This document shows positions 3,898 through 64,000 of a stretch of DNA of 64,000 bases, in pieces; the stretch's first letter is position 1, and every line of letters starts with the position of its first letter. Below the pieces are notes generated by a model. The model did no database searches. It had not been told where the DNA came from and saw only the letters and a list, made by a program, of their open reading frames with translations. Made by a program: the position numbers and the translations under genes. Origin of the DNA: Hysterangium stoloniferum (Eukaryota > Basidiomycota > Agaricomycetes > Hysterangiales > Hysterangiaceae); NCBI GenBank assembly GCA_015178975.1, contig WHVD01000071.1, positions 248,001-312,000 on the forward strand, written 5' to 3'.

Positions 3898-5255
3898 CCT
3901 TGGCAAGCGTCATAGCTTCCACCCAGGTTGTTATACTGATAGCCAATCATCAGATTAGAGGTTTGTGTGGACTCAGAGTAGCACATTAATTCCCGACTGA
4001 AAAATCATCAAACATGAGAAAATGAAGGGTGGATTGGGGCCACAAACTCAGAGCTGTGATGAACGATTATGCTGTGGGAGCTGAGAGGGACTGTTACAGA
4101 GACCGGTTTGGAATTCAAAGGACAGTCAGGTGGCCAGAAAGTAAGGGGGCAGTAAGATGCCAGAAGAGGGACATGCATAAACATAGCCCAGCATGGTGAA
4201 TATTGACATACCGGAAGAGCTCTGCCTGGAATAGGCCAAGCTACGGGTGGGTCACAGTCATTGATCTACCTTCTCATCGTCCCATCGAAGAGCATTCTCC
4301 ACCCATAATAGTATGAGCCTGGGGGAAACCTTCCACTCAGTCAGACAGAAAATACTAAGGGGAAAGTGTTGAATTAACACAACCACTGATGGACCCGCCA
4401 CAGCCGGGGAGATTTAACTTATTCACTTAGGCAGCTGAATGTTTAGAATATACGGCTGTGGGAGCATGCACAAGGATCTACACCGGCAATGTGCCGCCCC
4501 AGTGTTGTTTGAGTGTAGCATAATCCTTTGTTGCCACAGAGCTAGTGTTCTCATAGCATATATAGGTAGTATAGGTTTATTGTAATTACGTAATGTGTTT
4601 CCCTCCTACGAGTCACAGAGGTCAAACGGAAATTCTGTTGATATTTCCTTATGATTCTATGAGCTTCGAGAACTGATTTCAACAAAATGAAATCTACCTT
4701 GAGAACTCCAGTATTCCCCTTTTTCTCCCTCAGATGTTTCACAAAGTTCAAGCCGCTTGATATGGAAAGGGTGAATGAAAAAAAGAAATCACATTGCTGT
4801 CGAAAGAAAATTAAACAGGAAGCGCGCCATCTTGCTTGATAATGTTTATGGTTCACAGCGCCAACTTGAAGGCAGCAGCCAGGAAGCATCGCTCTTGACG
4901 TCATTTATATTATCCATGGCAATGTCGCTTTTTCAATATCAGAAAAGTCGGATTGATTTCATATACGATGCTCAAGAACACCAAAAATACTATACCATGG
5001 GGTGACAATTCACTAAACTATTATTAGATGCTGTGTGACTTCAGCGAGAGGCGGAAGAAGGTACTGATGTAACTTAGTGCACTGGAGCCTATATGGTTCA
5101 AAGAAGATAAGGGGACCAGGAAGGCAGGGATGAATTGCTGTGAATGCTGTGTAATCACGGCCCTAAGCTGTACCTGTGTGGAATCAACTCTCCGACTGAC
5201 TGCGTAATGAAAACATGACACCCCCTTCGAGTCTAAGTTCGACTGCTGCCCACCA
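3898..5255 (+). repeat. U block upstream of A1 copy 1
   Basis: This block recurs before other A copies, in either orientation: 7,366-8,499, 15,461-16,760 (minus), 33,335-34,560 (minus), 49,992-51,511, 56,050-57,059 and 63,000-64,000. Two stretches keep an open frame in several copies. One starts ATGGTGAATATTGACATACC near 4,194. The other encodes MAMSLFQYQKSRI near 4,916 and ends at a GTGTGA..TTCAG stretch that could be a short intron. They may be 5' exons of the A gene (inference). Confidence 0.7.
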
Positions 5256-7136
5256 ATGTCTACTTTCAAAGAGATGACGCTGAGGAATCAGGATTTGGAA
5301 ACGGCTGAGTCGCACCTTGAAGGCGTTGAGGAGATACCACCCTTAGTTTCCCCAAGTGTACTGATCTCAACGCAACAGGACCAGATGCTTGAGATGGGGA
5401 TGAGGAAAAGATTCCGGTTGAAGCTCAAGGAACGGTGTAAAGTATGATTCTATTTCCATGTTATTTGTGTCACGTCCTACACATTTCAGTGGCAAGGAGA
5501 AACGACCTACCATGACACACGGAGTGTTATTAACATGTCTTTGATATCCCACAACACGACAGCCAACCTCAGTCCATATCGCAGTCATGCCGAGGACTGG
5601 GGAATGGTCTCACAGTATGTCGGGACATCTTCAAGCATTGAAATTGGCCCCGGGTATTACTGTCGAGTCGGTTTGGAAAGGGTTGGGGTGAAATTACTTC
5701 GCATTGCCAAGACAGCTTCGTTGATCGCGAAGCTGACAGTATACCCGCAAATCACGAGTCGATTGGATGAAGACGACGGGGCCATTAGTAAGTTTCTACA
5801 CCAGTATCTCACGCCTCCCAGACTGGGAAGACTAGTTCAAGAGAGTGTGGATTTAGTGAGGTAGGGATAACTCAGCCTCAATCTTGAATACACTCGAAAT
5901 ACGGACGTTTTCGCAGACCCACATATCCATTTCACATTCGGAGAAGAGCGGCGACGGTTTTAAACAGTTTCACGGTGTATGTCCCGCGGAGTGGGAAAGG
6001 TCACACTACCCAGCTTATGGCATCTTTGGCTTCGGCCTTCTTATGGTGTCCCAACTTCCATTGGTCAGATAGAGATGCGTCACCTGCGATTACCTCATCA
6101 CTTTACAACGCTTTAGTAAAGTCACCGCTTCACATTAACTTTGATGAGGTTGCATCAACATTTATATCGTACACATGACCCGTTATTCAACAGGATTTAA
6201 TCATCCCTTTCCCGTTTTCATCCCTTTCCCGTTTTCATCCCTTTCCCGTTTTCATCCCTTTCCCGTTTTCATCCCTTTCCAGTTTTCATCCCTTTCCCGT
6301 TTTCATCCCTTTCCCGTTTTCATCCCTTTCCCGTTTTCCGCCTTATGCATATCGTGGAAGCGATCTGCCACGTGCGTCAACTATCCGTAGGGGAGCTAGC
6401 GATCAGAGGTTGGGCTGAATTCTTGGTACAACCGTGCGTCGCGACATCACATGATTTCATGCAGCCCACCAAAACCATAACAGACAATGTCACCCAAGAC
6501 GAGTTTACTTGTATGAAGAGCCTATACCGCTTTTCGTGTGTTGCATCCACCAAGATGCATGGTTTCGGGATATTGCTGGAGCTGTATTGACGGTTTTAGT
6601 GGACGACACAAATATTAATATAGCGTCATTGTCACGTCATATTGATTTGAGGACATCAAATTCCCTATTTTGGAGTATTGAGTGCTTGAACACATTCTTC
6701 GACGACAGCACGCTTCTCACCGATCACAATACCCAGGTGAATGTCGTTTCTTCGTTTATTGGGCCCATCGTAAGGTACGGTTGCAATATTTTCCCTTCTG
6801 GCACCGTCTTACATCCGCCTATGAAACTTTCCTACCAGCCTGATTCTGACGCACACAATTCCAAATTCGGATCTCCTCTATTCTGGTGAGGGAATAATCG
6901 CGCTGACTCTGAAGTTGATAGCTGGATCTTCCGAGCCCGAATCCGCGTGTACCACAGTGCGCAGCCTCGATACCATCCCCATTCTTGTTTCTCTTCTTCC
7001 ACACTGTGACATAATGCGCGGCTCGACCAATGACAAATCCATCAGTTACGACCTTCAGCGTTTGGATTACACCATGCGTTCCTTCCTTTGTGTCGTCGCG
7101 ACACCGTCCACTCGTGTGTCGGTAGGGTTTAATTAG
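5256..7136 (+). pseudogene. A1 family gene, copy 1 (degenerate)
   Basis: The first exon (from 5,256) starts MSTFKEMTLRNQDLETAESH and covers the N-terminal domain, but the part with the C-x(3)-GH-x(2)-CY motif is missing; the frame jumps from KLKERC to the intron region. The second exon (about 5,490-5,860) encodes YRSHAEDWGMVSQYVGTSSS and ends at GTAGGG, the splice donor used across the family. The third-exon region is broken into several frames and carries a 17-bp repeat expansion at 6,202-6,337. The C-terminal part, ACTTVRSLDTIPILVSLLPH, ends near 7,134. Function unknown. Confidence 0.7.
6202..6337 (+). repeat. 17-bp minisatellite, 8 units, inside A1 copy 1
   Basis: Eight head-to-tail copies of catccctttcccgtttt, one with a single change. 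In other A1 copies the same place has one unit-like stretch (for example 'cattatccctcaccccttttg' shortened, near 52,549). The expansion is therefore specific to this copy, and a unit length of 17 shifts the reading frame. Confidence 0.95.
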
Positions 7137-7365
7137 ACGCACATGTGAGTGTTTGGGCAATACGGTAACCCTGACAAAGGTCTTGCACCATCCATTGGAC
7201 ATACTTCCTACTGACTTCTCTTAGATAATGCTGACACATCAACCAACCCAGGAGGGACCCAATTACCCCGCCCTGTATTCAACTCACTTTCCAAGTTGTG
7301 GTTCCAGATGTTATACAGATATATGATTTGAGCGGATGTCAGAGCGCATATAGTCACTTTGCATT
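7137..7365 (+). repeat. T block fragment after A1 copy 1
   Basis: The start of the tail block seen after other A copies. It is cut at about 7,365, where the next U block begins in mid-sequence. This is a direct tandem junction between units. Confidence 0.7.
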
Positions 7366-8499
7366 ATTCGGGCAACAAACTCAGAGCTGCGATTAATGAC
7401 TATCGTGTGGAAACGAAAAGGGACTGTTACAGAGACAGTTTTGGAGTTAAAAGGAAAGTGAAGTGACCAGCAATGAAGGGGGCGGTAATTTGGCAGACAA
7501 GGGCCACAAATACGCATAGCCAGGCATGGTGAATCTTGACATACCGGAAGTGCTCTGCCTGGAATACGTCAAGCTACGGGAGGGTCACAATAAGTGATCT
7601 TCCTTGGCAGTGTTACTTTTAAGAGCATTCTCCACGCATCAATAGTGTGAGACTCTCAATGTGTTATAATATAGGGCTGTGAAAGCATGCACAAGGTTCT
7701 ACAGCGGCGATGTACTGCCCCATTCTTTGTTTGACTGCAGCATAATCCTTTCTTGCCACACAGCTACTGTTCTCAGGGCATATATAGGGAGTGTAGGTTT
7801 CTTGTAATTACGCTATCCGTTTACCTCCTACGAGACACAGAGTTAAAATGGAAATTATATTTGTCTTTCCTTATGATTCATATAAGCTTCGAGAACTGAT
7901 TTCAACACAATTAAATCGACCTTGAGAACTTCGGTGTTCCTCTTTGTATTCTTTATATTTCACAAATTTGAAGCCGCTTCATATGGCAAGGCTAAATGAA
8001 GAAATCACATCGCTACAATAAATCCGACTCAACTATCACCTGACCTGGGTTTCATCAAAGTTTGGACAAAATTAAACAGGAAGCGCCCAATCTCGCCAGA
8101 TCAGGTTTAAGGTTCACACCGCCAACTTGAAGGCAGCAGCCAGGAAGCATCGCTCTTCACAGCATCTATATTATCCATGGCTATGTCACTTCTCCAATAT
8201 CAGAAAAGTCGTATTTCTGATGCTCAAGAACACCAGAAATACTATACTATGTGACAATCGACTACACTATTATTAGATGTTGTATGACTTCAGCGGGAAG
8301 CGTAAGAAAGTAGTGAGATAGGTTAGAACACTGGAGCCTATATGGTTCAAGGAAGATGGAGGGACCACGACGGCAGGGATCAACTGCTGTGAAACCTGTG
8401 TAAGCACGGCCACAAGGCTGTACCTTGGTGGAATTAACTCCCCAAATGACTGCGGCATAAAAGCGCGACACCCCCTTCGAGTCTAAGTACGACTGCTAC
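7366..8499 (+). repeat. U block upstream of A1 copy 2
   Basis: Collinear with 3,980-5,255. Near its end (8,320-8,480) a frame encoding TLEPIWFKEDGG...NCCETC...LYLGGINSP runs towards the A start. The same frame appears before copies 5, 12 and 13, and in copy 13 it is open straight into the A start. The true A protein may therefore begin further upstream than MSTFNE. Confidence 0.7.
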
Positions 8500-10353
8500 C
8501 CACAAATTCTATTTTCAACGAGATGAAGCTGATGAATGACGATTTGGGAACGGCTGAGTCGTGCCTTGAAGGCGTTGAGGAACTACCACCCTTACTTTCC
8601 CCAGGTGTATTGAGCTCAGCGCAACAGGACCAGATGCTTGAGATGGGGATGAGGAAAAGATTCCAGTTGAAGCTCAAGGAACGTTGGAGCTGTAATGAAG
8701 CTGGACATGATTTATGTTACCGGCCCCCCGATGGAGAGCAGCACATACAACTGTCTGCAAAACATATAGAGGCTTGGGTTGAGGAGTTAGTGAGTAACGT
8801 ATGATGCCATTTCCATGTTATTTTTATCACATCGTGGACATTGAAGTGGCAAGGGGAAACAACCTACCATGACCCACCGACTGTTGTTAAGACGTCTTGG
8901 ATATCCCACAACACGACAACCAACCTCAGCCCATATCGCAGTCATACCAAGGACTGGGGAATGGCCTCACAGTATGTCGGGACAACTTCAATGATTGAGG
9001 TCGGGCCCGGGTATTTCTGTGGAGTCGGTTTGGAAAGGGTTGGAATGAAAGTCCTTCACATTGCCAAGATAGCTTCGCTAATTGCGAAGCTGACAATATA
9101 CCAGCACATCACGAGTCTATTGGATCAAGACGACATTAGAAAGTGTCTACACCAGCATCTCACGCCTCCAAGACTGGGAAGAGTAGTTCAAGACAGTGTT
9201 GACTTATTGAGGTAGGGATAATTCAGCATCAATCTTGAATACGAAATACAGACGTCTTCGTAGACCCACATATCCACGTCAAATTCGGCGCAGAGCGAGG
9301 ATTATTTTAGTGACGTTGGAGGGGTATTTATCGTGGAGGAGGAACGTTCACACGACCCAGCTTATGGCATCTTTGGGTTCGGCCTTCTTAGGGTGTCCCG
9401 GTGTTTGGCCAGATTCAGCGTCAACTGCAATTACGTCATCACTGTACAACACTTTAGTCAAGTCGCCGCTGCACACCAACTTGGATGAGGTTGCATCAAC
9501 ATTTATCATAAACCTTGCCGGGTCTTTAACCTATCATAATCCGTTGCCCATGACCGGCCTTCCGGATATCGTGGAAGCGGTCTGCCACATGCGCCAACTA
9601 TCTGTAGAGGAGCTCACAGCGATCAGAGGTTGCTTTGAAAGCTGGTTACAACCGTGCGTCACGACATCACACATCATGTCATCCAGCCAGAGCCATAACA
9701 AACAGAGTCACCGGCAACTAACTCTTTATTATGACGATCCTATACGGCTTCTCGTGTGTTGCATCCACCAAGATGCATGGTTTCGAGATATTGCTGGACC
9801 TGTATTGAAGGTGTTAGTGGACGATACAAATATGAATATAGCGCTATTGTCACGTCATGTCGGTTTGAGGACATCACGTTCCCTATTTTGGAGTATTGAG
9901 TGCTTGACAACCTTCTTCAACGACAGCACGCTTCTCTCCGATCACATAAACCAGCTGAGTATGGTTTCTCCGTTAATTGGGCTCATCGTGCGGTACGTTC
10001 ACAATATTTGACTTTCCAGCACCGTCTTACATCCGCCTACGACACTTTCCTACAGCCTGATTCTGACGCACACGATTCCAAATTGGAAACTCCTAGTCTG
10101 TGGGGAGCACATAATCGCGTTGACTCTGAAGCTGATAGCTGGATCTTCCGACCCCGAATCCGCGTGTACTACGGTGCGCAGCCTCGATCCCATCGCCATT
10201 CTCATTTTACTCCTTCCACATTGTGACATAATGCGCGGCTCTACCAATGACACATACATCCGTTCCCGCCTTGAGCGTTTGGATTCCATCGTGCGTTCCT
10301 TCCTTTGTGTCGTCGCGACACCTTCCACTCGTGTGTCCGTGGGTTCTAACTAG
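8500..10353 (+). pseudogene. A1 family gene, copy 2
   Basis: Exon 1 runs to 8,789 and includes WSCNEAGHDLCYRPP and HIQLSAKHIEAWVEEL. Intron 1 is 8,790-8,846 (GTGAGT..AAG). Exon 2 is 8,847-9,211. Intron 2 is 9,212-9,263 (GTAGGG..GTAG). Exon 3 is open from 9,264 to about 10,010, the longest open third exon in the window, and includes PIRLLVCCIHQDAWFRDIAG. A conserved C-terminal part continues in broken frames to 10,353. The usual start ATG is ATT here. The C-x(3)-GH-x(2)-CY plus H-x-x-L-S...W pattern recalls repeated hypothetical proteins of agaricomycetes, but I cannot name a function. Confidence 0.75.
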
Positions 10354-12340
10354 ACACCGATATGAGTGTTGGGGAAGCACAGTTGCCCTGACAGAGGTAC
10401 TGCACCATCGATTGGATGCACTTGCTACTCATTTCTCTTCGATAATGTGACACATCTCAACCAAGTCAAGAGGAGCCCAATTGCGTCGCCCTTTATTCGA
10501 CCCACTTTGCAGCCGGGGTTGCAGATGTGATAAAGGTATATTATTTGAGCCGATATAAGAACGCATATAGTCACTTTGTATCATCTCCGGGACTTCTGCT
10601 GTTGTCCCCATACACGTGTTAAATACATTTGAGCGGACTAGTCATGCTTGGACTAACCTCCGAATAAGCGACATGTGATTTAAATAAGATATTGTAGATG
10701 GTCTGAAAAAAGCCTCCCACGTCTCCATTTCGATGCATGTCTCCTTCAAGCTCATGTTCCCTTCACGCCAGTTTTGAATCGACAGGATCCATGATCTTAG
10801 AACCGACGTCCTTCACACTGTGCGAGGCACTGTTGGGTGAATTCCTTAAACTAATTCTACTTCATTGAATCCTTGAAAGCAAAGCTGCCATGGGTCGCGA
10901 CGTATCACAGCGCATACAGTCGCCTTTCACCCTCGCCGCGAGCTTAGGCGTTTATGCCATACATCCGTGCAATACACTTGCGGACACCACCAGTGTCTAG
11001 ACTGTCATCTGATTTATAAAAGACAATTATTTCAAACAGAACGTGTATTTGAGAGTTGAATGAAGCTACATAATTTGCCTCGATTCAAAGGCGAATATAG
11101 TCACTTGTAATGATCGCTGCGAGGTTCTCTAGACTGGTTTTGAATATATTGCGAGCACTGACCGTAGCTGTAGTCATATCGGATTTACTAGTGATAAAAA
11201 TTTCCATCGTATACCACTAGGACGGGTTGTCAAAAGAGGCCGTGCCACCTTTATTCTTGTGTTGTTTCCTTGCGAGAACAGGAACCCGGGCCAAGCCATT
11301 GGACAACACGACGATCAAAATACCTGCACTTCTCATCAGTCATGACTTTTCACATTGGATGAGAGAAAGGTAGCTCGTGGTTCCAATCAAGTAAGACCTG
11401 ACAGATAGCCACGACGACCGGGCCCATGGAGGAGCCAATCCACGGGAAATCTCGTTTATGTTGTGTCTCGATATTCCAGTCGTTCGCCTCACACGACACG
11501 CGAGGAAAATTTATTTTACTCGCTATCCAGACATTTCCCCTGCTCCTCCCATTTCAGTTGACTGGAGATAATTCCACCAATTGACATTTCGAATTAGTTC
11601 ATTTCGAGTCTGAACAAGACAGACAATAATACGACTTAATCGTTTTACTATGTGTACCCAAGCATGAATAATTAAATGCGCGGTTTACTAATACGACCCT
11701 GACCACTTCGCATCACCAAGGATATTCAAGTTCGACCCTCAACCACATCGAGAAAGTCCGCTCGGACATCCTCTTGGATATTCCAACCGACTTGCCAACT
11801 CTAGTCATCTTCCTTTCTTTGCTCATGTCTCCCAGAAAATGTAAGTCGCTTGAAAGATGTAAGTCGCTTGATATGGAAAGGGTACACGAGGAATCCAGTC
11901 CTCATTTTCCCGATAAATAATTCTTTAAACTCAATGTCTTGTGGAAACAATATTGATAGTATGGATGAGGTCAAGAGCAGCCGATGAGGACCGGTGAAGA
12001 TGGTATCTCTGTATTTATACTGATTATTATTATCCATGTCAACATGATTACTCAAATGACAGCCTGATTGACTGTATAATTATAGCATTTATGAACTATA
12101 GAGAGTCATCGCACAGACGTACTATTATCTGCCACGGGTGTACGGGAATGTCGCAGAGGCTACGAAATTGGTGTGATAAATTAGGACGATGCTATGAGAG
12201 TATCTTGGGGGCTGGAATATTAAATGAGGGTCAATGGGCACATTTAAACGTGAAGGGAATGGCATGCAGTATATCCTCTGCAAGCACAGTCCCAGCATTC
12301 TAGCTGGAAATTGACTCTCCCTCTGCCTGAATCATGAAAG
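10354..12340 (+). repeat. T block after A1 copy 2 (longest)
   Basis: About 2 kb of tail sequence that recurs, in pieces and in both orientations, after most A copies. It contains several diverged copies of a motif around gcgcatatagtcact followed by catacatgtgttgaatacatt (near 10,555, 10,910 and 11,093). The distal part keeps protein-like frames in several copies, such as SWSHIGFTSD and FVWENRKPGQAIGQH; the latter is followed by a plausible GTAGCT..GACAG intron. It may hold an old downstream gene. Confidence 0.7.
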
Positions 12341-12760
12341 TGCAGCATGTCATCCTGCTGAGAATGTACAGAGAAGCTGTATTACGTTGAAATATAACCT
12401 CACGAACTCGACAGCTGCTATATTATGCCGTGACAATTCACCAAAATACTCCTAGCTGTCATGTGTGCGCTTCGAAGTAGACGATCTCACTTGTGTAGCA
12501 GTAGCATCTTCTCCGAACTCCATATCAGGGTTGGAAAAGAGGGTGTTTGACCTGGAGAACGCCTTGCTCCATCACTCGACACGATCTCAAATCACGTAAC
12601 GCCGAGATGCTCTAACTGGATGATATTATTATTTTCCTTTTTTCAATTACTTTGGAGGGCGAATAAATATTGAATAAACCCGCAAAGTTTGAGGCAATGT
12701 GAGAGCACTTCTTCAGTGCTGAGTCCGTGACGAAAACTGCATCGATGATAACTCAGAATG
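12341..12760 (+). repeat. mosaic with B-tail fragment
   Basis: 12,300-12,350 resembles the end of a U block. 12,475-12,722 matches the B tail in + orientation (compare 62,220-62,480). This is the turning point of the large inverted repeat between units 2 and 3. Confidence 0.5.
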
Positions 12761-13845
12761 CTTTTGAGATTCTTGGTTGTTGACTAATAGCTATATATAT
12801 TGTAGGATTACATGTGTACATCTCAGCGGCAACGATTATTCCTGGACAATTTTTGAGCCGAACAGAGATGACTGGTATTTTAATCATCGTGTTGTCCAAT
12901 GGCTTGCCCCGGGTTCCTGTTCTCGCAAGCAAAAAACACATGACTAAAGGTGGAACGGCCTCCTTTGACAACACGTCTTAGTGGTATGCGATTGAAATGT
13001 TTATCGCTAGTAAATCCGATATGACTGCAGCTACGGTCAGTGCTCGCAATATATTCAACACCAGTCTAGAGAACCTCACAGCGGTGATTACAAGTGACTA
13101 TATTCGCCTTTAAATCGAGTCAAATTATGTAGTTTCATTCAACTCTCAAATCCACACTTTGTTTAAAATGTTTTGTCTTTTATAAATTGGATGACAGTCT
13201 AGACACTGCTGTTGTCCGCAAGTGCATTCAACGGATATAGGGCATAAACGCGAGGAACCTGCTCAGCTTGCGGCGAGGGTGAAAAGTGAATGTATGCGCT
13301 CGTATACGTCGCGACTCATGGAAGCTTTTCTTTCAAGTATTGGATGAAGTACAATTAGCTTAATGAATTCACCCAACAGTGCCTCGCCAAGTGTGAAGGA
13401 CGTCAGTTCTAAAATCATGGATCCTGTCAATTCAACACTAGTGAATGGGACATGAGCGTGAACGAGACATGCATCTACATGGAGATGGGGGAGGCTTTTT
13501 CAGACCTTATATAATATCTTATTTAAATCATATGTTGTTGATTCGGAGGTTAGATGACTAGTCACCTCAAATGTATTTAACACATGTATGGGGACAACAG
13601 CAGAACTCTCAGCGATGACATAAAGTGACTATATGCGTTCTTACATCGGCTCAAATCATACATCTTTATAACATCTGCAACCCTAGCTGCAAGGTGGGTT
13701 GAATAAAAGGCGACACAATTGGGGTCTTCTTGATTTGGTTAAGATGTGTCGCATTGTCGAAGAGAAATGAGTTGGAAGTGCATCCAATAGATGGTGCAGT
13801 ACCTTCGTCAGGGCAGCCGTGCTTCCCCAACACTCATATCGGCAT
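12761..13845 (-). repeat. T block of A1 copy 3
   Basis: Reverse-complement counterpart of 10,354-11,340. 12,723-12,880 is nearly identical to 28,955-29,110, which points to a more recent exchange or duplication between these two places. Confidence 0.75.
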
Positions 13846-15460
13846 CTAATTAGACCCTACCGACCCACGAGTGGAAGGTGTCGCGACGACACAAAGGAAG
13901 GAACGCACGGTGAAATCCAAACACTGAATGTGGGAACGGATGTATTCTTCATTGGTAGAGCCGCGCATTATGTCACAATGTGGAAGGAGTAAAATGAGAA
14001 TGGCGATGGGGTCGAGGCTGAGCACCGTGGTACACGCGGATTCGGGGTCACAAGATCCAGCTATCAGCTTCAGAGTCAACGCGATTATGTGCTCCCCACA
14101 CCAGAGGAGATCCAACTTTGGACTCGTGTGCGTCAGAATCAGGCTGTAGGAAAGTGTCGTAGGCGGGGGTAAGACGGTGCTGGACAGTCAAATATTGTGA
14201 ACGTACCGCACGATGGGCCCAATGAACGATGAAACCACATTCAACTGGTTGATGTGATCGGAGAGAAGTATGCTATTGTTGAAGAAGGTTTTCAAGCACT
14301 CAATACTCCAAAGTAGGAAATGTGATGTGCTCAAACCGACATGACGTGACAATAGCTATATTCATATTTGTGTCGTCCACTAACACCTTCAATATAGGTC
14401 CAGCAATATCTCGAAACCATGCATCTTGGTGGCTGCAACACACGAGAAGCCGTATAGGATGGTCCAAATGGAGAGATAGTTGCCGGTGACTCTGTCTGTT
14501 ATGGTTTTGGTGGGCTGGCTGGATGAAATGATGTCATGTCGCGACGCACGGTTGTAACCATAATTCAATGAAACCTCTGATCGCTGTGAGCTCCTCTACA
14601 GATAGTTGGCGCACGTGGCAGACCGCTTCCGTGATATACACAAGGTGCAAAAGGAGTGTGCAAAACCATTATCGCTCGTTTCCGAATTTGAGCCGGGTAT
14701 GTGGGTCTACGGCCTCAGACATGAGTATTTCGAGCATGACGCTTTGTTATCCCTACCTCATCAAATCAACACTCTCTTGAACTAGTATTCCCAGTCTTGG
14801 CAGTGTCAAATACGTTTTCAAAAACTTGTCAAAGGCCCCGTCTTCTCGATGCAGTCGACTTATGATTTCCTTGTATATTGTCAGCTTTACCATCAGCGAA
14901 GCTGTCTTGGCACTCTGAAGAACTTTCATCCCGACCCTCTCCATACCGACTCCACAGAAATACCCGGGGCTAATTTCAACACTTGAGGATGTCTCAAGAT
15001 ACCGTGAGATCATTCCCCAGTCCCTGGCATGACTGGGATATGGGCTGAGGTTGGATTTCTTGTTGATGGATATCTTAACCGCAGTTGGTGGGTCATGGTA
15101 GCTCGTTTCTCCTTGACACTGAAATGTGGTGGATGTGACACAGATCCTATGGAAATAGCATTACACTTTACTCACCAACTCGTCAACCCAAACCTCTATA
15201 TTGTTTGCAGACAGCTGTAAGTGCTGCTCGTTATCGGGGGCCCGATAACATAGATCATGACCTGGTTCATTGCAGCTCCATCGTTCCCTGAGCTTCAACC
15301 GGAATCTTTTCCTCATCCACTCTTCATTTATCTTGTCCTGTTGCGCCGAGGTCAATACAGCTGGAGAAACTAACGGTGGTAGTTCCTCAAGGCCTTCAAG
15401 GTGCGACTCAGCCGTTTCCAAATCTTGATTACCCAGGGTCATCTCGTTGAACGTAGACAT
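13846..15460 (-). pseudogene. A1 family gene, copy 3
   Basis: Exon 1 (15,460 down to about 15,176) is intact and encodes MSTFNEMTLGNQDLETAESH to VWVDEL, ending at GTGAGT. Exon 2 follows after a short intron and ends at GTAGGG near 14,756. Most of the start of the third exon is missing or scrambled; the later part (VEELTAIRGF region, HQDAWF region) is recognisable in broken frames. The C-terminal segment LWCGEHIIALTLKLIAGSCD is open at 14,115-13,846. It faces copy 2 in convergent orientation. Confidence 0.7.
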
Positions 15461-17490: not shown

Positions 17491-17783
17491 TCAGTAAAAT
17501 GGTGTGGCCACCACAAAAAGGAAGAGGTGGTCAGTGGCCGATAAATTACCAAGACACTCAAGACTGAACCGGTTGGTGATACACTGTTCGATCAGTTGGT
17601 TATTAGTAGAGCAGCACATTGTGTCACAATGTGGAAAAAGAGAAACAAGAATGGCCACAGTATGGAGGCTGCGCACTGTGGTAACGCGCGGCTTCGGGAT
17701 TGGAAGATCCAGCTATCCTGAATTTGCCGTGTGCCCTTCCATATCAAACAACTTGCATCTTCTGGAGGGTCTGAACACAGCAA
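17491..17783 (-). pseudogene. B family gene, C-terminal fragment
   Basis: Only the last conserved part of the B core remains. It aligns with the ACTTVRSLDTIAILVSLLPH region of A copies through RSLHTVAILVSLFPHCDTMC. This segment is closer to A than other B copies are, so it may be a mixed copy. The frame is broken and nothing upstream is preserved. Confidence 0.5.
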
Positions 17784-17815
17784 GGAGGATCATTAGAGTC
17801 GGAAGGTTTATTTAA

Positions 17816-35577: not shown

Positions 35578-35589
35578 GTGATCCCCCCT

Positions 35590-41685: not shown

Positions 41686-41689
41686 TAAA

Positions 41690-51511: not shown

Positions 51512-53355
51512 CCTCTACGTTCAACGAGATGACCCTGGGGAATCACGACTTGGAAACGGCTGAGTCGCACCTTGAAGGCGTTGAGGAACTACCACCCTTA
51601 GTTTCTCCAGCTGTATTGACCTCGGCACAACAGGACAAGATCAATGAAGAGTGGATGAGGAAAATATTCCGGTTGAAGCTCAGGGAACGATGGAGCTGCA
51701 ATGAACCAGGTCATGATCTATGTTATCGGGCCCCCGATAACGAGCAGCACTTAAAGCTGTCTGCAAACCATATAGAGGTTTGGGTTGACGAGTTGGTGAC
51801 TAAAGTGTAATGCTATTTCCATAGGATCTGTGTCACATCCAGCACATTTCAGTGTCAAGGAGAAACGAGCTACCATGACCCACCAACTGCGGTTAAGATA
51901 TCCACCAACAAGAAATCCAACCTCAGCCCATATCCCAGTCATGCCAGGGACTGGGGAATGATCTCACGGTATCTTGAGACATCCTCAAGTGTTGAAATTA
52001 GCCCCGGGTATTTCTGTGGAGTCGGTATGGAGAGGATCGGGATGAAAGTTCTTCACAGTGCCCAGACAACTTCGCTGATGGTAAAGCTGACAATATACAA
52101 CGAAATCACAAGTCGATTTCATCGAGAAGACGGGGCCTTTAACAAGTTTTTACAAACGTATTTGACGCCCCCAAGAATGGGAATACTAGTTCAAGAGAGT
52201 GTTTATTTAGTGAGGTAGGGATAACAAAGCGTTATGCACGAAATACTCATGTCAGAGGCCCTAGACCCACATACCCGACTCAAATTCGGAAACGAGCGAT
52301 AATGGTTTTGCAGAAATTCGCAATCTATACACCGCGTACACAGCGGGGGAAGAAATGTACCACTCGGGTTATGACATCTTTGGCTTCGGCCTTCGAAATG
52401 TGTCCCGGCGTTTATTGGTCAGATAGAGACGTCAACTGCTATTACGTCATCACTTTACAACGTTTTAGTCAAGTCGCCGCTGCACCCCAATTTTGATGAG
52501 GTTGCATCAACATTTATTATACAAATTTCCGGTTATCTAAAAGGATTTCATTATCCCTCACCCCTTTTGCGCCTTGTGTATATCGTGGAAGCGGTCTGCC
52601 ACGTGCGCCAACTATCTGTAGAGGAGCTCACAGCGATCAGAGGTTTCATTGAATTCTGGTTACAACCGTGCGTCGCGACATCACACATCAGGTCATCCAG
52701 CCAGAGCCATAACAAACAGACTCACCGGCAACTATCTCTCCATTTTGACGTTCCTATACGGCTTCTCGTGTGTTGCATCCACCAAGATGCATCGTTTCGA
52801 GATATTGCTGGAGCTATATTGAAGGTTTCATTGGACAACATAAACATGCATATAGCGTCATTGACACTTCATATTGATTTGACGACATCAAATTCCCTAT
52901 TTTGGAGTATTTACTGGTTGAAATCCTTCTTCGACGACACCATGCTTCTCACCGATCACATCAACCTGCTGAACGTCATTTCTTCGTTCATTTCGCCCAT
53001 TGTAAGGTACGTTCACAATATTAGACCTTCCAGCACCGTCTTACATCCGCCTATGAAACTTTCCTACAGCCTGATTCTGACGCACACCATTCCTAATTTG
53101 GATCTCCTGTGGTGTGGGGAGCACATAATCGCGTTGACTCTGAAGCTGATAGCCGTATCTTCCGAGATCCGCGTGTACCACGGTGCGCAGCCTCGATACC
53201 ATCGCCATTCTCATTTTTCTCCTTCCACATAGTGACATAATGTGTGGCTTGACCAATGACGAATACCTCAGTTACCACCTTGAGTGTTTGGATTTCACCG
53301 TGAGTTCCTTCCTTTGTGTAGTCGCCACACCTTCCACTCGTGTGTCGGTAGGGTG
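51512..53355 (+). pseudogene. A1 family gene, copy 10
   Basis: Exon 1 lacks the usual ATG (two bases lost) but reads on to RWSCNEPGHDLCYRAPDNEQ and HIEVWVDEL. Exon 2 reads CQGETSYHDPPTAVKIS-like sequence, then MISRYLETSSSVEISPGYFC, ending at GTAGGG near 52,216. Exon 3 starts after a short intron; its middle is shifted. From 52,567 a 221-codon open stretch runs through VEAVCHVRQLSVEELTAIRG and PIRLLVCCIHQDASFRDIAG into LWCGEHIIALTLKLIAVSSE. That stretch shows the third exon and the C-terminal block are one reading frame. It is closest to copy 3 (shared ETSSSVEISPGYF). Confidence 0.75.
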
Positions 53356-55229
53356 ATTAGACTCCCATGTTGGGGAAACACGGTTACACTGACAAAGGTC
53401 TTGCACCGTCCATTGGAAACACTCCCTAATAATTTATCTTAAATACTGCCGACACATACCAGGAAGAGCCCACTTGCGTCGCCGTTTATTCAACCTACTT
53501 TGCAGCCCGGGGGCCCAGTGTTATAAAGATATATGATTTGAGCCGATGTCATATAGTTACTTTGTATTATCCCCGCGAGTTCTTCAGTTGTCCCCATACA
53601 TGTTTTAAATGCATTTAAGGGCACTCGACATTCCTGGACTAACCTCCGCATGAACGACACTTGTTTTAAATAAGATATTATTGAAGGTCTGAAAAGGCCT
53701 CCTCCGTCTCCATTTCGACGCATGTCTCGTTCAGGCTCATGTGACCTTCACGCCAGTGTTCGGCCGACAGGATCCATGATCCTACGTCGACCTCCACACC
53801 ATGCGAGGCTTGGGCGACTTCCTTGAACTACTTCTATTTCATTGAAAACTTGCCAACAAAGCTACCACAGGTCGTGAAATATAAGAGCGCATACAGTCAC
53901 CTTTCACCCGCACCGCGACCTTATATATTCCAGTCGTTGATGCCATACATCCGTTGAATACACTAACGGGCACCACCAGTGGGTAGACTGACATCCTATT
54001 TATAAACTCAAACAGAACGCGTATTTGAGAGTTGTATGACGCTACATAATTTGACTCAATTAAAGGCGAAAATAGTCACTTGTAATGATCGCTGCGATGT
54101 TCTGTAGACTGGTGTTGAATATATTGCGAGCACTGACCGTGGCTGGAGTCATATCAGATTTACTAGCGATAACAATTTCAATGCAATAACACTAGGTGGT
54201 GTCAAAGGAGGCCGTGCCACCGTTATTGTTGTGTTATTTGTTTGGGAGAACCGGAAGCCGGCCCAAGCCATTGGACAACACGATGATCAGAATACCAGCA
54301 ATTCTCATCAGTCATGACTTTTCACATTGGATAAGAGAAAGGTAGGTCGTAGTTCCTATCAAATAAATCTCGTTTAAGTTGTGGCTGAAAAGTTCAGTTG
54401 TTCGGGTCACACGACACGCCACGACCATTTATTTTGCTCGCTATCCCCACATTTCCCCTACTGCTCCCATTTAAGTTTACCATCATTTCCCCAACTGTCA
54501 TGTTTGAATTATTTCATTTCGAGTCTTAGCCATACATGAAATAATACGACTTAATCGTTTCATTATTTGTACCCAAATATGAAAGATTAGATGCGCGGTT
54601 CACTAATACAACCCGAACGGCTCCCTATCACTAAGAATATTCAACCTCTACGGTGACCCACCTCGAGAAAAGCTACTCTGAATTCCTGATGGGTTTTCCA
54701 GCCTATTTTCCAACTCTCGCTCTCTTCTTTGCTTTGCTCAGACATTCCAGAAGATGCAAGTCGCTTTATATTGGAATGGCACACGAGGAATTCAGTCCTC
54801 ATTGGAGCGGTAAAGCATTGTTTAACCTGGATTTCTTGTGGCAACAATATCGATAGGATTGAATACGGGTGAGGTCAAGAGTAGGTGATGAGGACCGGTG
54901 AAGATGGCATCTTTATATTCATACTTATTATCCATGTCGACGCGATTACTCAAATAACAGCCTGATTGACTGTCCTTATAGCATTCGTGAACTCTAGAGA
55001 GTCGTCGTATTATGCGGTGATCACTCACATATACACTATTATCTGCCATGCATGTACGGAGATGTCAAGAAGTGTAAGACATTAGGGTGATCAACTAGGA
55101 GGGTGCTGTGAGAGTATCTTGCGGGCTGGAATATTTATTGAGGGTCAATAGGGCCATTTAAACATGAATGAATGACATGTGGTATGTCCTCTGCAAGAAA
55201 AGTCCCAACATTATAGATGGAAAGTAATT
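53356..55229 (+). repeat. T block after copy 10
   Basis: Collinear with 10,354-12,300 over nearly its full length, ending with the same distal part (55,020-55,220). It is the second long T block in + orientation. Confidence 0.75.
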
Positions 55230-55650
55230 CTCACTGACCACATCTTCCAGCTGAATGTCGTTTCTTCGTTCATTGGTCCAATCGCAAGGTACGTTCACAA
55301 TATTTGATTTTCCAGCATCGTCTTACATCCGCCCATTAAACCTTCCTACCGGCCTGATTCTGACGCACACCATTCCAAATGGGCATCTCCAATCTTCTGG
55401 TTAGTGTATAATCGCGTTGACTCTGAAGTTGATCGCTGGATCTTCCGAGCCCGAATCCGCGTGTACCACAGTGCGCAGCCTCGATACCATCCCCATTCTT
55501 GTTCATCTTCTTCCACACTGTGACATAATGCGCGGTTCGACCGATATCCAATCCAGGAGTTACCCGCTTGAGCGCTTAGATTTCACCGCACGTTCCTTCC
55601 TTTGCGTGGTCGCCACACCTTCCACTCGTTTGTCGGTAGGGCCTCATTAG
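55230..55650 (+). pseudogene. A1 family gene, 3' fragment (copy 11)
   Basis: Begins in mid-gene at LNVVSSFIGPIARYVHNI-like sequence right after a T block. It includes LIAGSSEPESACTTVRSLDT and FLCVVATPSTRLSVG and ends near 55,650. The junction implies unequal recombination between units. Confidence 0.65.
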
Positions 55651-57059
55651 ACGCTCATATGAGTGTTGGGGACACACGGTTGCCCCTGACAAGGGTCTTG
55701 CACCGTGGATTGGAAACACTTCCTACTAATTCTCTGACATATCTCCATGGAACCAGGAGGAGCCCAATAGCGGCGTCCTTTATTCAACTTACTTTGCAGC
55801 CGGGGGTCCAGATGTTATAAAGATAAATAATTTGAGCCGATGTAAGAGCGCATATAGTCACTTTGTATTATCGCGGCAAGTTCTGCAGTTGTTCCCATAC
55901 ATGTCTTGAATATATTTGAATGTACTAGTCATTCCTGGACTTGTTAAAAGTGATACCCTAGAATGTAGTTCTCAGTCTCGTATATTCGTAGTATAACGGA
56001 CTGAGGCAAAGCTATAATTGACGCCTAATATATATATGTGTGAAACCAGGGACATTTGTTATGCTATATGGCTGTGGGGGCATGCACAAGGTTATACACC
56101 GGCAATGTGCTGCCCCTTTGTTGATTGAGTGTAGAATAATTCTTTGTTGCCACGCAGCTAGTGTTCTCACGACATATATAGGTAGTATAGGTTTAGCGTA
56201 ATAATGCTATGCTTTTCCTTCATCCGGGTCCCAGAGGCCAAACGAAAATTCTGTTGATCTTTCCTGATGATTCTATGAGCTTCGAGAACTGATTTCAACA
56301 AAATGACATCTACCTTGAGAACTCCGGTATTCCCCTTTGTCTCTCTCACACGTTACACAAAGCTGAAGCCGCTTGATATGGCAAGGGTGAATGTAGGAAT
56401 CACATTGTTGAAAGAAAATTAAACAGGAAGCGCGCAATCTTGTCTGATAAGGTTTAAGGGTCACAGCGCCAACTTGAAGGCAGCAGCCAAGAAGCATCGC
56501 TCTTGACGGCATTTATATTATCCATGGCAATGTCGCTTCTTGACTATCAGAAAAGTCGTATTTGCTTTCATCTATCTTTCTCAAGAACACCAAAAATACT
56601 ACACGTTGAAAGTTTTGATAAAATTAAACCTGAAGCGCGCAATCTTCCCTGGGAGGGTTTAAGGTTCACAGCGCCAACGTGAAGGCAGCAGCCAGGAAGC
56701 ATCGCTCTTGACAACATTTATATTATCCATTGCAATGTCACTTATCGAATATAAGCAAGGCCGTATTGCTTTCAACTTTGATGCTCAAGAACGCCGAAAA
56801 TACTATACTATGGTGTGACAATCGACTAAACTATTATTAGATGCTTTGTGATTTCAGCGGGAGGAGATAACTTTGTACATTGGTGCCTATATGGTTCAAA
56901 GAAGGTGAGGGGATATTGTGTACGATAGTAGGGATGAACTGCTGTGAAACCTGTGTAAGGACGGCCACAAGGCTGTACCTTGGTGGAATTAACTCTCCGG
57001 CTGGTTGCGCCATAAAAGCACGACACTCCTTCTAGTGGAAGTATGACTGCTACCCACCA
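55651..57059 (+). repeat. T fragment and U block of copy 12
   Basis: 55,651-55,945 is a short T fragment. 55,946-56,050 is unrecognised. 56,050-57,059 is U block. 56,407-56,604 and 56,605-56,808 are two tandem copies of a 198-bp part of the U block (both contain ttaaac..gaagcgcgcaatctt), found once in other units. Confidence 0.7.
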
Positions 57060-58921
57060 ATGTCGGCTTTAAACGAGACGACTCTGAGGAATCACGATTT
57101 GGAAACGGCGGAGACGCACCTGGAAGGCATAGAGGAGCTGCCCCCCTTAGTTCCCCCAGGTACATTGAGCTCACCGCCACGGGACCAGATGATTGAGATG
57201 GGGAAGAGGGAAATATTCCGGTTGAATCTCAAGGAAAGATGGAGCTGTAACGAACCCGGACATGATTTATGTTATCGGGCCCCCGATGACGAGCAGCACA
57301 TCCAACTGTCTGCAAACCATATAGAGCTTTGGGTTGAAGAGTTGGTGAGTAAAGTGTGATGCTGTTCCCATGTGACGCGCCTCACATCCTGCACATTCCA
57401 GTGCCAAGGAGAAACGAGCCACCATGATCCACCAATGATTGTGAAGATATCCGTCAACAAGACATCCAACCTCAGCCCATATCGCAGTCAAGCCGATGAC
57501 TGGGGGATCGTCTCACAGTATGTCGGGACATCTTCAAGCATTGAAATTGGCCCCGGATATTACTGTGGAGTCGGTGTGGAAAGGGTTACGATGAAAGTCC
57601 TTCGCCGTGCCAAGACAGCTTCGCTGATGCCAAAGCTGACAATATACAAGGAAATCCTAAGTCGATTGTATCGAGAAGACCGAGCCTTTAGCAAGTTTCT
57701 ACAAAGGCATATTACGTTGCGAAGACTGGGAATGCTAGTTCAAGAGAGTGTTGATTTAATGAGGTAGGGATAACTTCGCGTTAATCTTGAACACACTCAT
57801 ATCTGAGTCGTAGACCCACATATCCACTTCAAGTTCGGAGAAGAGCCGCAATGATTTTCGATGATTTCCCAGCCTTTTCCGGAGGTTTGGAGGCAATAAT
57901 CCGCAGTAACAAAGGTCACACTTCCCACCTCATGATATCTTTAGCTTGGACCTTCATGTGGTGTCCCGGCGTTCATTGGTCAGATAGAGACGGGTCAACT
58001 GCGATTACGTCATCACTTTACAACGTTTTAGTCAAGTCACCGCTTCACACCAACTTGGATGAGGTTGCATCGACATTTATCATACACATCGCGGGTTATC
58101 TAACAGGATTGCATAATACGTTACCGCTTATCGGCCTTGCGAGTATCGTGGAAGCGATTTGCCACATGCGTCGGCTGTCTGTAGAGGAACTCACTGCGAT
58201 CAGAGGTTTCATTGAATTCTGGTTACACCCGTGCGTCACGACATCATTCCATTTCATCCTGCCCACCAAAACCATAACAGACAACATCACAGACAACGAC
58301 GTTCCTTTTATCAGTATTCTATACGGCTTCTCATGTACTGCATCTCCCAAGATGCATGGTTTCGAGATATTGCTGGAGCTGTATTGAGGGTTTTATTGGA
58401 CGACATAAACGTGCATATATCATCATTGACACTTGATCTTAACTTGGAGACATTGCATTCACTGTATCGGAGTATTTGCTCCTTGCAAACCTTCTTCGAC
58501 GATAGCACGCTTCTCACCGATCACATCAGTCAGTTGAATGTGGTTTCTTCGATCATTGGGCCGATCGTACGGTATGTTCACAATATTTTACTTTCCCGCC
58601 CCAACTTATATCTGACCATTAAACTGTCCTACCAGTCTGATTCTGACGCACAGGAATCCAAGTTGGGATCTCCTGGAGTCCGGTGAGCGCATAATGGGGT
58701 TGACTCTAAAACTGATAGGTGGATATTCCGACCCCGGATCCGCGTGTACCACAGTGCGCAGCCTCGATACCATAGCCATTATCACTTCTCTCCTTCCACA
58801 TTGTGAGACAATGCGTCGCTCGACCAATCACCAATATATCAGTTACCAGCTTGAGCGTTTATATTTCACCGCACATTCTTTCCTTTGCGTGGTCGCCACA
58901 CCTTGTGTCGGTAACGTTTAA
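57060..58921 (+). pseudogene. A1 family gene, copy 12 (best preserved; possibly partly functional)
   Basis: Exon 1, 57,060-57,344, is 95 codons: MSALNETTLRNHDLETAETH .. RWSCNEPGHDLCYRAPDDEQ .. HIELWVEEL. Intron 1, 57,345-57,401 (57 nt), has GTGAGT, a ctcac branch-like site and TTCCAG. Exon 2, 57,402-57,763, reads CQGETSHHDPPMIVKISVNK to ESVDLM. Intron 2, 57,764-57,813 (50 nt), has GTAGGG..GTAG. Exon 3 from 57,814 starts RPTYPLQVRRRA and is open to 58,387 (CPGVHWSDRDGSTAITSSLY). A frame change follows, and the stretch 58,231-58,686 continues in another frame. The C-terminal block lies at 58,694-58,921. No known domain, signal peptide or membrane segment. Possibly a nuclear or cytoplasmic protein; role unknown. 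Confidence 0.75.
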
Positions 58922-59640
58922 TTAGACCCCCCATATCAGTGTTGCGAAACATGGTTGCCCTGACAAAGGTCTTGCACCATCAATTGGACGTACTTCCTAA
59001 TCATTTTTCTTCCATAATCCCGTGAACATCTCAACCAAACTAGTGGGAGTTCAATAGCATCGCCCTTTAAATAACTTACTTTGTAGCTGGAGTTGCAAAT
59101 TGTACACAGCTATATAGTTTGAGACAATGTAAGAGCGCATATAATCACTTTTCCCCATCGCTGCGAGCCCTGCACCTTGTGACCATACATGTGTTGAATA
59201 CATTCGTGGTTAGATTAACAACCAAATCATGAAGGAAGTCTTTTTAACTAAAATATCACTGGATCAGGTGCATCTGATCTTCAATCTAGTGTGCAATCGA
59301 CATGATCCATGATTTTCCAAGAAAATGCTTTTGATAAGGGGAGGGCCTTTACAGTGCCAGGCACAGTGTTGGCCCTTAAACTAGCTCTCACCTGGTGAAA
59401 GCTTGACGCAATACTGCAGGGTCGCTTTCTCATCAATGGAAAATTCCGAAGAGTGAAACTATACCAATGTTTCAAATGATTCAGAGGAAGGTTAGACGTA
59501 AACCGGATACATTTGAGACTGATATGACATTGAAAGTTGAATGGTGTGAGTAAGAGAGATAATTGGTTCTCGCACAGGACATACAGCTGTCATCCGGAAA
59601 TAGAAAGAATCGCCTCGTCAGTAGCCGCAAACCGAGACTG
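58922..59640 (+). repeat. T block fragment after copy 12
   Basis: Matches the T blocks, including the gagcgcatataatcact motif near 59,133 and catacatgtgttgaataca near 59,185. It fades out by about 59,640. Confidence 0.65.
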
Positions 59641-59739
59641 TATGCTTGGATGATGCGCCATCATGCCACTCTGATTTTGGGAGGCTAAAATTCACACCGA
59701 TGCAGGGAAGTACGCTAATCCTTTCTCATAAATTCGGGA

Positions 59740-61150
59740 AGAAGGCTATCCTAATCATCGCGCACCTGGACAGAGTGTCATCACAAGGTTACTACTCTCG
59801 TATTATCCGGAGACGAGAGCCTGCTCTCTTCGAAGAACACTTCTATAAAATAACCGTCACTCCCCAATAATTTCAATATATCATAAGCAATATAAAGCGT
59901 CAGTTATGCTATGGCTATGTCAATATACTCTTCAATATAGCTCCAACAATATCTCCCCCCCATGCACCTTGGTGGATACAACGCACGAAAAGCCGGATAG
60001 CAGTATAAAGTAACGACGTGATTGGAGTTGACGTATTACTTATTTATTGACTGATCGATGCCGGGGGACCATATAACCCAAAGATGTCATAAGTGTGGCA
60101 ATGTGACCTCTCGGCTGTATATATAAATTAGTCTGCCTAGTCTTCCTAGAGTTAAATTCTTGCTCCTGGAACCTGTCAAGCCAACATGCCGTGAGACCAC
60201 TCCCCAGTCCACGGAATGATTGTGATATGGGCTGAATGTGGCATTGTTAGATGTCTCTGACATGGGAACATTGCTCGTTGGGCCGTGGTAATTTCTCTCT
60301 TCTTAGCAATGAAACATAGAGTCTGTCAACAGTGTACACAATAACGATACTTCATTTCGTGCCTTCTTGCACCATACCTTGACCCGAACTTCTACGTCTT
60401 CTTGAAACAGTGGTATGTGCTGGTCATCATCGTGGCCTGGTCACATAATTGATGTATGGGTTTGGTATAGGTCCATGACTCCCGAAGCTGGTAAGTTTTG
60501 AGACAAGAATAAGAAAGGATTGAGTCTTTATATGCGGCTCAGTGAGTGAATAACTTTCACTGAGGTATATGGCGAATTGTGTCCTTTTATTTACTTTGTA
60601 ATTGTTTAGGGGAGTCTTTAGAAAAAGGAGAAACTTAGATACTCGAAGTTTCTAGCTAATTGCATCATTAAAGGAGAAGTATATAATAAAAGGAGTTAGT
60701 TCCCCCTTATGGCACCATAGTATATGCACATATATGCGCATACACTCGTCATTGTGGATTCAATCCTGGTGCGAAGACTTGTATTATTAACAGAACCTTC
60801 TCCCCCAATATCTCTCTTATTTCCGTCATAATAATGTGCTTCTGTTGTTCTGAACTCGATACACCCGGGGAAGGAAATTGGTAGCTCCTCAGCTCCTTCA
60901 ACCAGGGTTTCAACCGTTGCCATGCCATGAGTCCTCAACATCGGTTCGTTGAAAGTAGACATTGGCTTGTAGCAGGAGTACTCGTACCAAATGGATGGCT
61001 GAGCCTTTATGGTGCAGTCAGCCAGAGAGTCAATATTAAGATGTAGCCTTGTGACCGTGCTTACACAGGAGACACAGGGTTTCATCGCCCTATTTGTAAA
61101 CAAGGCCTTCTCATCCTCCTTGAAACATATAGCCTGAATTATACTGTAAC
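59740..61150 (-). pseudogene. A3 subfamily gene copy
   Basis: On the minus strand, 61,103-60,696 is one open frame. It runs from an upstream part (MKPCVSCVSTVTRLHLNIDS) straight into MSTFNEPMLRTHGMATVETL and EGAEELPISFPGC. This is the best sign that the A protein starts upstream of MSTFNE. Exon 2-like sequence lies near 60,380-60,180, and third-exon sequence with the HQGAW-like region near 59,960. About 60,493-60,740 is an insert without counterpart. Broken. Confidence 0.6.
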
Positions 61151-61630
61151 TTTACCTCACTAACTTCTCATACTAGTGTCTTACCTTAACTTCCGACCAC
61201 TCCGATCGTCCTTGGAAGACGGCGACAATGTGATACTGTATGGTCTGGAGAAGCGTCCGAGGGTTGCTTGAAGCAGAGGTTTACTATGTGATTTTCTTGT
61301 CAGGAGAAGAGAAGTTGATTTCTTCCGCTCAACCCAGGTTGCCACAATCATCAAAAAATAGCATCAAATGCCCGTTAGGATTTCTTGAAAGCATTTATAC
61401 GGCTTGTAAATACATGCTATCATAGTTAATCAGATGGACATTTAGCAGATTGGAACCATAGATACTTGAGATAAGTCAGAGGATCGATATGCTCATGACG
61501 ATATATTATAGTTATTAATAAAGAGCCATAGATTGCAATCACATATAATAGGTTCATTAAAATATCTGTTTGTGTCTCCTGATCTGCCTGGGACAACAAA
61601 TGTCGGATAAATGAAGCAAGTCCACTAGGC
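61151..61630. other. unrecognised sequence
   Basis: No match to unit blocks. A 68-codon minus-strand frame (61,632-61,426) has a hydrophobic run (LYVIAIYGSLLITIIY) that could be a membrane segment, but support is weak. Confidence 0.4.
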
Positions 61631-62158
61631 ATGAGCTCTTACATAAAATCATCTAAATGCAACACTTCGTTACAAAATCAAATAACAACGTTTCTTGTCT
61701 ATGCACCTCAGTGCCAGGTGAAGCTTTTAATACGTTGTGTTCAACAAAATTCGTATTTTCGAGGATGTTTCTGGAGCTGTTTCGAATATCATTGTGGACA
61801 AAATGGTCATCAATATGACAATATGCTGCTGATTAACCAGCTGAATGGTTTTTCTTCGCTCATGGAGTCCTTTGACACTACATTCTCTATTCTTTATCTT
61901 CCACCATTGTCTTACATTCGCACAATAAATTAACTCATCTCTAACTCTGACTCAAATGAGTCCATATTGGCCGTGGTTGTCGGATGTGTAAAATTCATTG
62001 CTATTGCACTGAAGCCAATAATATCTGCACCTTCTGACCCGGAATTCACGTGCAACGCAGCTCATGGTACCAATACCGTCGCAATTCTTGTTTGCCGCCT
62101 GATAAATCAAGGCATCAAGACACAATGGACAGTGCATCATGAACCGGTTCACCATTGA
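61631..62158 (+). pseudogene. B family gene copy
   Basis: 61,631-61,933 reads CVQQNSYFRGCFWSCF-like sequence matching the CIHQDAWFRDIAGA position, then DNMLLINQLNGFSSLMESFD. 61,967-62,158 reads AVVVGCVKFIAIALKPIISA, PSDPEFTCNAAHGTNTVAIL and INQGIKTQWTVHHEPVHH. It is followed by B tail and a U block, giving the composite order on the + strand. Confidence 0.6.
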
Positions 62159-64000
62159 GTGTCTTGAACATTTAGTTTCCCCTGGCCTCCCCTTCCTTTT
62201 AGTGGTGGCCACACCTTTCACTGATGTACGAGTAGCATATCCTTCAAACTTGATATCAGAGTTGGAAAAACGAGGTTTTATCTGGTGAACGTCCTGCTCC
62301 ATAATTTGACACGATCTTTAATCAGATATCGTCTGCATACCTGGAACAAACTAAGAGGAGGATCTCGTCATTTCTCCTTTTTTAGTTCGTTTTGGAGGAC
62401 AATTAAGCATTTCATAAACGTGGGTAACTTGCGGGAATTTCTGAGCGCATACAATCACTTCTTATTCTTATTACAGCTCTGTGCTGAGTCCGTGACGAAC
62501 GCTGGGTCAATGACACTTTGAATTCGTAGGACTCGTCATTTGGAATTAATAATTAAATTTATTTTAGGACCCCACGTATGCATCCCTGGGAGCTATTATT
62601 TGGGTTGAGAATGGATACAGTCATGTCTTGTGCTCACTGTAACTGTGGTGCATTGGTGACGAGGATTGTGTCGATGATACCTTGAACTTTGGAGGGCTTA
62701 TGTTTTGTGACTTACATAATTAAATTTGATTTGGGACTACATATATGTATCTCACAGGCAGCACATGTTCCTGGATTGTTTTTGAATCAGTCTAATGCCG
62801 GGTCGATCGTTGCCACTGTCTTTGAACGGAATTCCGGTTGTGTTCCATCATACCGAAGTTGTATTATCGTGCAGAGTGACACCAATGGCATTCTGAATAA
62901 ATATATTGCATATTAATTATCCCAAAGATAGTGGGAAGAATATGTTTGCTGTTATGCTACTGCACTGAAGATTATTCCCAGAGCCCAGAGTCATGACATT
63001 ATGGTGTATTACCTTGGCAAGCATCATAGCTTCCGCCCACGTTGTTATACCCATAGCCAATCATCAGCTTATATTTTAGTGTGGACTCAAAGTAGCTCAT
63101 TAATTCCCCGACTGAAAGATTATCAAAACATGAGAAAATGAAAGATGGATTCGGGCCACAAACTCAGAGTTGCAATGGGCGATTATCGTGTGGGAACTAA
63201 GAGGGACTGTTACAGAAACCGGTTTGGAATTCAAAGGACAGTGAAGTGACCACCAATGAAGAGGGCAGAAGGGGGACACGTATAAGCATAGCCCAGCATG
63301 GTGAATCTTGCCATACCGGAATAGGGCAAGTTACGGATGGGTCACAGTTTTTTGATCTTCCTTGTCATAGTTCCGTCGAAGAGCATCCTCTACACATGAA
63401 TAGTGTGAACCTGGGGGGAAACATTCCACTCGGACAGACAGAAAATAATAAGGAGAAAGTGTTGGATTAATATGCCCACTGATGGATACGCCACAACCAG
63501 GGACATTTAAGTTATTCACTTGCGCAGCTCAATGTGTTATAATATACGGCTGTGGGAGCAAGCACAAGGTTCTACACCGGCAATGTGCGACCCCATTATT
63601 GTTTGAGTGTGCATAATCCTCTGTTGCCACACAGCTAGTGTTCTCATGGCATATATAGGTAGTATAGGTTTATTGTAATTATGCTATGCGTTTCCCTCCT
63701 ACGAGTCACAGAGGTCAAACGGAAATTATGATTATCTTTCCTTATGATTCTTTTCGAGAACTGATTTCAACAAATTGAAATCTACCTTGAGAACTCTGGT
63801 ACCCCCTTTGTCTCCCTGAGACATTTCACAAGGTCCAGGCCGCTTGATATGGCGAGGGTGAATGAAGAAATCACATTGCTGTTGAAAGAAAATTAAACAG
63901 GAAGCGCGCAATCTTGCCTGATAAGGTTTAAGGTTCACAGCGCCACCTTGAAGGCAGCAGCCAGGAAGCATCGCTCTTGACGGCATTTATATTATCCTAT
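62159..64000 (+). repeat. B tail and U block, cut by the window end
   Basis: 62,159-63,000 is B tail and includes the frame at 62,689-62,916 (VFERNSGCVPSYRSCIIVQS). 63,000-64,000 is U block up to the MAMSLL position; an A1 start would be expected about 300 bases beyond the window. Confidence 0.7.

Follow-up and report, generated by a model that had tools for sequence, protein, structure and literature searches.

The composite repeat that dominates the window, by which we mean the whole 64,000-nucleotide stretch analyzed here, is best read as a decaying tandem array of a two-gene locus that was amplified by unequal recombination, as in ordinary gene-family amplification, and we put the probability of this reading at about 0.85. 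We explain the repeat by a host gene pair amplified under relaxed selection; a mobile unit as its explanation lacks support. In a self-comparison, 48,307 of the 64,000 bases matched another site of the window over at least 100 bp, and mapping the copies onto two reference stretches gave 13 copies or fragments of gene A and 7 copies of gene B across the whole 64-kb window, where reading frames are short and interrupted. The picture is of a pair of genes that has multiplied as one module and is now breaking down where it lies, in an apparently repeat-rich and probably fungal genome. This puts on record a gene family without a Pfam model, but its main value is as a caution that behind such a composite repeat there can be an old gene cluster and not a new mobile element. 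The parts of the window are as follows, with U being the stretch located between B and A, T the stretch following A, and C a third paralogue.

3897-7367 (+): A1 copy, truncated at its 3′ end, with a minisatellite of eight 17-bp copies, 98% matching, at 6201-6338
7366-11324 (+): A2 copy, four exon segments tested, all open
11226-12322 (+): T after A2
12872-16797 (-): U and A3 copy, 5′ half A7-like, 3′ half A2/A5-like, with ~100 bp of T at the end
16808-17587 (-): B1 core and tail
17718-18955 (-): A12, A copy reduced to its 3′ end, with T
19298-19789 (-): extra T fragment
21715-23113 (-): B7, degraded B copy with part of the 5′ half
23110-23940 (+): C fragment, third divergent paralogue, inside the minus block
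24169-26290 (-): A4 (exons 1-2), with U remnants at 25881-26283
27378-28935 (-): B2 core (inside ORF 28513-29019) and tail
29175-29990 (-): T after A5
30931-34694 (-): U and A5 copy, further 3′ exons possible
34767-35581 (-): B3 core and tail
35668-36764 (-): A10, A copy with an internal deletion
36767-38139 (-): B4 core and tail
38520-39988 (-): A11, A copy reduced to its 3′ part, with T at 38520-38915
41686-42309 (-): U following B5
42314-44690 (-): B5, most complete B copy, with 5′ half
44806-47394 (-): A6 copy, interrupted at ~46023-46479
49986-55235 (+): U, A7 and T, with ~500 bp unmatched elsewhere in the window at 50448-50960
55225-55941 (+): A8, 3′ fragment of A
56054-59204 (+): U and A9 copy
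59700-61160 (-): second C fragment, inside the right plus block
61619-63068 (+): B6 core and tail
63068-64000 (+): U and start of A13, leaving the window

The original prediction had described a unit running from B core and B tail through U and A core to T. Self-alignment bore out the composite blocks and their order in both minus-strand examples (B3-U-A5 at 35,581-30,931 and B1-U-A3 at 17,587-12,872), as well as in the plus-strand example, where B6 starts at ~61,619-61,815 and is followed by A13, which leaves the window. In neither minus-strand example do the five parts run on unbroken, as T is not intact there: after A5 it is set off by ~940 bp (30,931-29,990) that match nothing else in the window, and after A3 it is reduced to ~100 bp (12,872-12,981).

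Order and orientation can be read directly from the alignments. Between 47.4 and 12.9 kb, the 13 A and B copies of the minus strand alternate throughout (p = 6e-4, given 7 A and 6 B), while alternation over all 20 copies in the window has a p of 0.0098; strands cluster, the 20 genes forming 3 runs (p = 2.9e-4) and, if the two C fragments are counted, the resulting 22 forming 7 (p = 0.04), all of these values being based on a block list assembled by hand after the map was seen. After every B copy (7/7), the next copy is an A on the same strand. Four of the seven lie no more than 75 bp from the following A or U block, and for B7, B2, and B5 a gap of 1.8-2.8 kb before A is filled with U remnants or foreign sequence. 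Spacings between B cores are 4694, 6654, 6646, 2558, and 5184 bp, with the 2558-bp spacing representing the unit whose A copy (A10) is internally deleted; the likeness of the two 6.65-kb units, in which there is an unmatched stretch or a truncated A, may be due to chance. Counter to the array reading, the two C fragments lie reversed, one of them inside the minus block. The plus blocks are without clean alternation (A1 A2; A7 A8 A9 B6 A13), and A1, A2, A7, A8, and A9 have no B directly before them. Because the closest full A pair (A2/A5, 93.6%, inverted, 20 kb apart) and the closest B pair (B4/B6, 90%) are both on opposite strands, stepwise tandem duplication alone is insufficient to account for the arrangement.

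The ends of the copies are ragged. Among A copies that lack a preceding B, the 5′ ends lie at differing places in U or A, and the 3′ ends differ too. At the A1/A2 boundary (7,366), the 3′ part of one A copy is joined directly to the next U, with neither T nor B between them. The closest relative of A3 switches near 14,650 from A7 (89-98% identity) to A2/A5 (84-92%), and ~250 bp are missing from A3 relative to A7 at this ~14,650 switch point, so A3 looks like a chimera of two other copies. Taken together, the ragged ends, the A1/A2 junction, and the two halves of A3 are consistent with a tandem array reshaped by unequal recombination, deletion, and conversion. We propose that an ancestral gene was duplicated to give B and A and that unequal recombination then multiplied the pair, with U and T, head to tail as a unit of several kilobases. 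Some stretches of the array would since have been inverted, and most of its members would have decayed through deletion, insertion of unrelated sequence, recombination or gene conversion between copies, and point mutation.

Two alternatives had been left standing by the original prediction, amplification by recombination and cargo of an unseen element, and only the first fits: the head-to-tail copies, the A/B alternation over 35 kb, the ragged ends, flanking duplications at chance level, and the chimera-like copy all favor recombination over cargo. We regard it as quite improbable that the composite is a non-autonomous mobile element, or the cargo of one, inserted here repeatedly. Copies in both orientations would agree with such an element, but A and B alternate, strands cluster, and the ends are not common to the copies; a search among the copies in the window turned up no shared sharp ends bearing terminal inverted repeats. 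Over 11 blocks, the two flanks had at most a 5-bp direct word in common, a chance-level figure given the mean of 4.5 bp in random pairs. A Ty1/copia reverse transcriptase fragment is contained in the region, as are MULE-like and LINE-like reading frames recognized by eye only, but the copia fragment interrupts a single unit. Of five stretches scanned for inverted repeats, one holds the B2 core, which sits between inverted B-tail repeat copies (arms of 82 and 43 nt, 73-79% complementary), but no such flanking arms were found at the other six B cores. Transposon-captured gene fragments are known, such as Pack-MULEs and Helitron captures, and the window resembles them in having gene pieces multiplied amid mobile-element remnants; it differs in its ordered alternation over 35 kb and in lacking shared termini or above-chance flanking duplications.

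Gene A is a coding gene with three short GT-AG introns, and its splice sites are kept in most copies. These introns, the broken-up reading frames, and the copia-type reverse transcriptase point to a eukaryotic host, which intron size and general resemblance suggest to be a fungus, probably a basidiomycete. The coding segments of A5 are at ~33334-33041, 32992-32628, 32575-31847, and 31783-31507 on the minus strand, separated by introns of 48, 52, and 63 bases, with all boundaries read by eye. A manual count across aligned copies found the GT donor of intron 1 in 7/8 (it is missing in A4) and its AG acceptor in 8/8, both sites of intron 2 in 8/8, and for intron 3 the donor in 9/9 and the acceptor in 8/9 (it is missing in A8). 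The intron loss that marks retrogene copies is not seen: at the first, second, and third joint, each of the 8, 8, and 9 aligned copies, respectively, has its intron. The A protein would have at least about 550 residues, and there may be further exons.

In all six full-length A copies, exon 1 has an open frame and no indels, with change at third positions of 0.191 versus 0.121 and 0.127 at the other two; this third-position excess is smaller in exon 2, is seen in the exon 4 segment, and is absent from exon 3. The dN/dS ratio is below 1 in 14/15 pairs for exon 1, 28/28 for exon 2, and 25/28 for the exon 4 segment, and above 1 in 8/21 pairs for exon 3. Frameshifts or stops are present in exons 2-4 of several copies. 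The open exon 1, the third-position excess, the dN/dS mostly below 1, and the broken exons indicate that the A family was duplicated as a coding gene and now experiences weak or no selection.

The same observations bear on a different explanation, in which the window is a cluster of a mostly functional, fast-evolving host gene family whose A and B pairs are kept by selection. An exon 1 open in 6/6 full-length copies, a dN/dS that for exons 1, 2, and 4 is below 1 in the majority of pairs, and splice sites that are mostly kept would be expected from such a cluster, but truncation, or a frameshift or stop in exons 2-4, is seen in the majority of copies, and among the 13 A copies only A2 and A5 are open in all four tested segments. 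Moreover, the dN/dS of this recent pair over the four segments (2.65, 0.79, 2.52, and 1.29) looks as it would under relaxed selection, though few changes underlie these ratios. On balance, we find a functional cluster highly improbable. The same small chance is given to A and B being an undescribed fungal two-gene locus whose paralogues multiply and recombine as a pair because they have a joint function, for instance in recognition or allorecognition that evolves fast and in which chimeric A copies would provide new specificities. Within the decaying array that we favor, expression of A2 or A5 may persist; the methionine codon of A5 is missing at the same place in A2, and A5 has an 8-base deletion near the end of its last segment. 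RIP-like mutation was considered for these copies and rejected, given that, of the changes derived in each copy, C-to-T and G-to-A account for only 15/45 in A2 and 13/61 in A5, and that dinucleotide indices are not extreme.

Tandemly duplicated gene clusters that evolve by birth and death are a general kind known in eukaryotes. The array is similar to them in its head-to-tail paralogues, its broken copies beside nearly intact ones, its chimera-like copies, and its turned blocks, but here what is repeated is a module of two paralogues that had diverged beforehand, and neither Pfam nor PDB has a match to the protein.

The paralogy of A and B, which had been claimed from the first reading, was confirmed, with 25 of 97 residues identical (E 5e-5). 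A tblastn search with the A protein reached all seven B copies, B6 at E 0.006 and the other six at 5e-6 to 7e-10. The similarity makes B a distant paralogue of A's 3′ part. The proposal of an ancient duplication that gave A and B and was afterwards copied as one block is supported. The B core makes up the 3′ half of a longer gene, and remnants of the 5′ half are preserved at 44,690-43,289 (B5) and 23,113-22,344 (B7). The third paralogue, C, is represented in the window by two fragments. The B-tail repeat is ~136 bp long and occurs as a head-to-tail pair with a period of ~170 bp in five of the seven B copies and singly in the other two. In total, 15 copies of it were found, three of them outside B tails (12,715, 18,997, and 28,953). 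The plus-strand copies at 12715-12849 and 28953-29086, beside minus-strand genes, are 94% alike over 165 bp; the latter flanks the B2 core, and the former lies between the plus and minus blocks.

T is probably spacer sequence and not a gene block. The A protein found no match to T by tblastn, and between-copy tblastx identity in T is about equal over the six frames, compared with the 5′ half of B5, which favors one frame (958 versus 487-762 residues). With neither an A match nor a frame preference, T as a coding block or as the missing 5′ half of B is disfavored, which is not proof. We word this as probable only because the decayed 5′ half of B7 is nearly frame-neutral too, showing hardly any preference (164-220 residues) in the same tblastx test.

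Neither A nor B matched a Pfam family at E up to 1, and a PDB sequence search returned one match only, at chance level (E 0.52). A fold model of the 244-residue exon 3, assembled from 9 fragments of 6 copies, was all-helical with a low-confidence mean pLDDT of 62, suggesting that the A protein is probably all-helical; a Foldseek search with this model gave 457 matches at E up to 10 and none at 0.001. No confirmed relatives were found in IMG/VR for a 472-residue A query or the copia ORF, nor in genome_contigs for 244 residues of A2, but these collections cover viruses, bacteria, and archaea, and single-protein searches of this sort find only close relatives; for a fungus the negative outcome therefore carries little weight. 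A literature search over titles and the openings of abstracts found the locus described in no title, which is not evidence of its absence from print.

Several neighboring elements accompany the array. A Ty1/copia-type polyprotein fragment lies at 39918-41276 (+), between the U of B5 and A11, and its RVT_2 domain (copia-type reverse transcriptase, 39,918-41,276, 243.7 bits) was the sole Pfam match above the cut-off among 10 proteins; pieces from its 3′ side (41490-41684) recur at 2952-3227. Reading frames resembling a MULE transposase and a LINE were recognized by eye at 20107-20831 (-) and 45994-46302 (+), respectively, and the two ORFs tested there (20370-20831 and 45994-46302) had no Pfam match. 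The segment between the inverted blocks, at 47395-49985, has a CpG observed/expected ratio of 0.18 versus 0.75 for the window and long broken reading frames with no Pfam match, and is perhaps an old methylated mobile element. Finally, a large palindrome at 692-1368 is 84.6% matched overall and 94% in its outermost 66 bp; it is a foldback-type element without obvious target duplication, and TTACAGCTG begins both of its ends.
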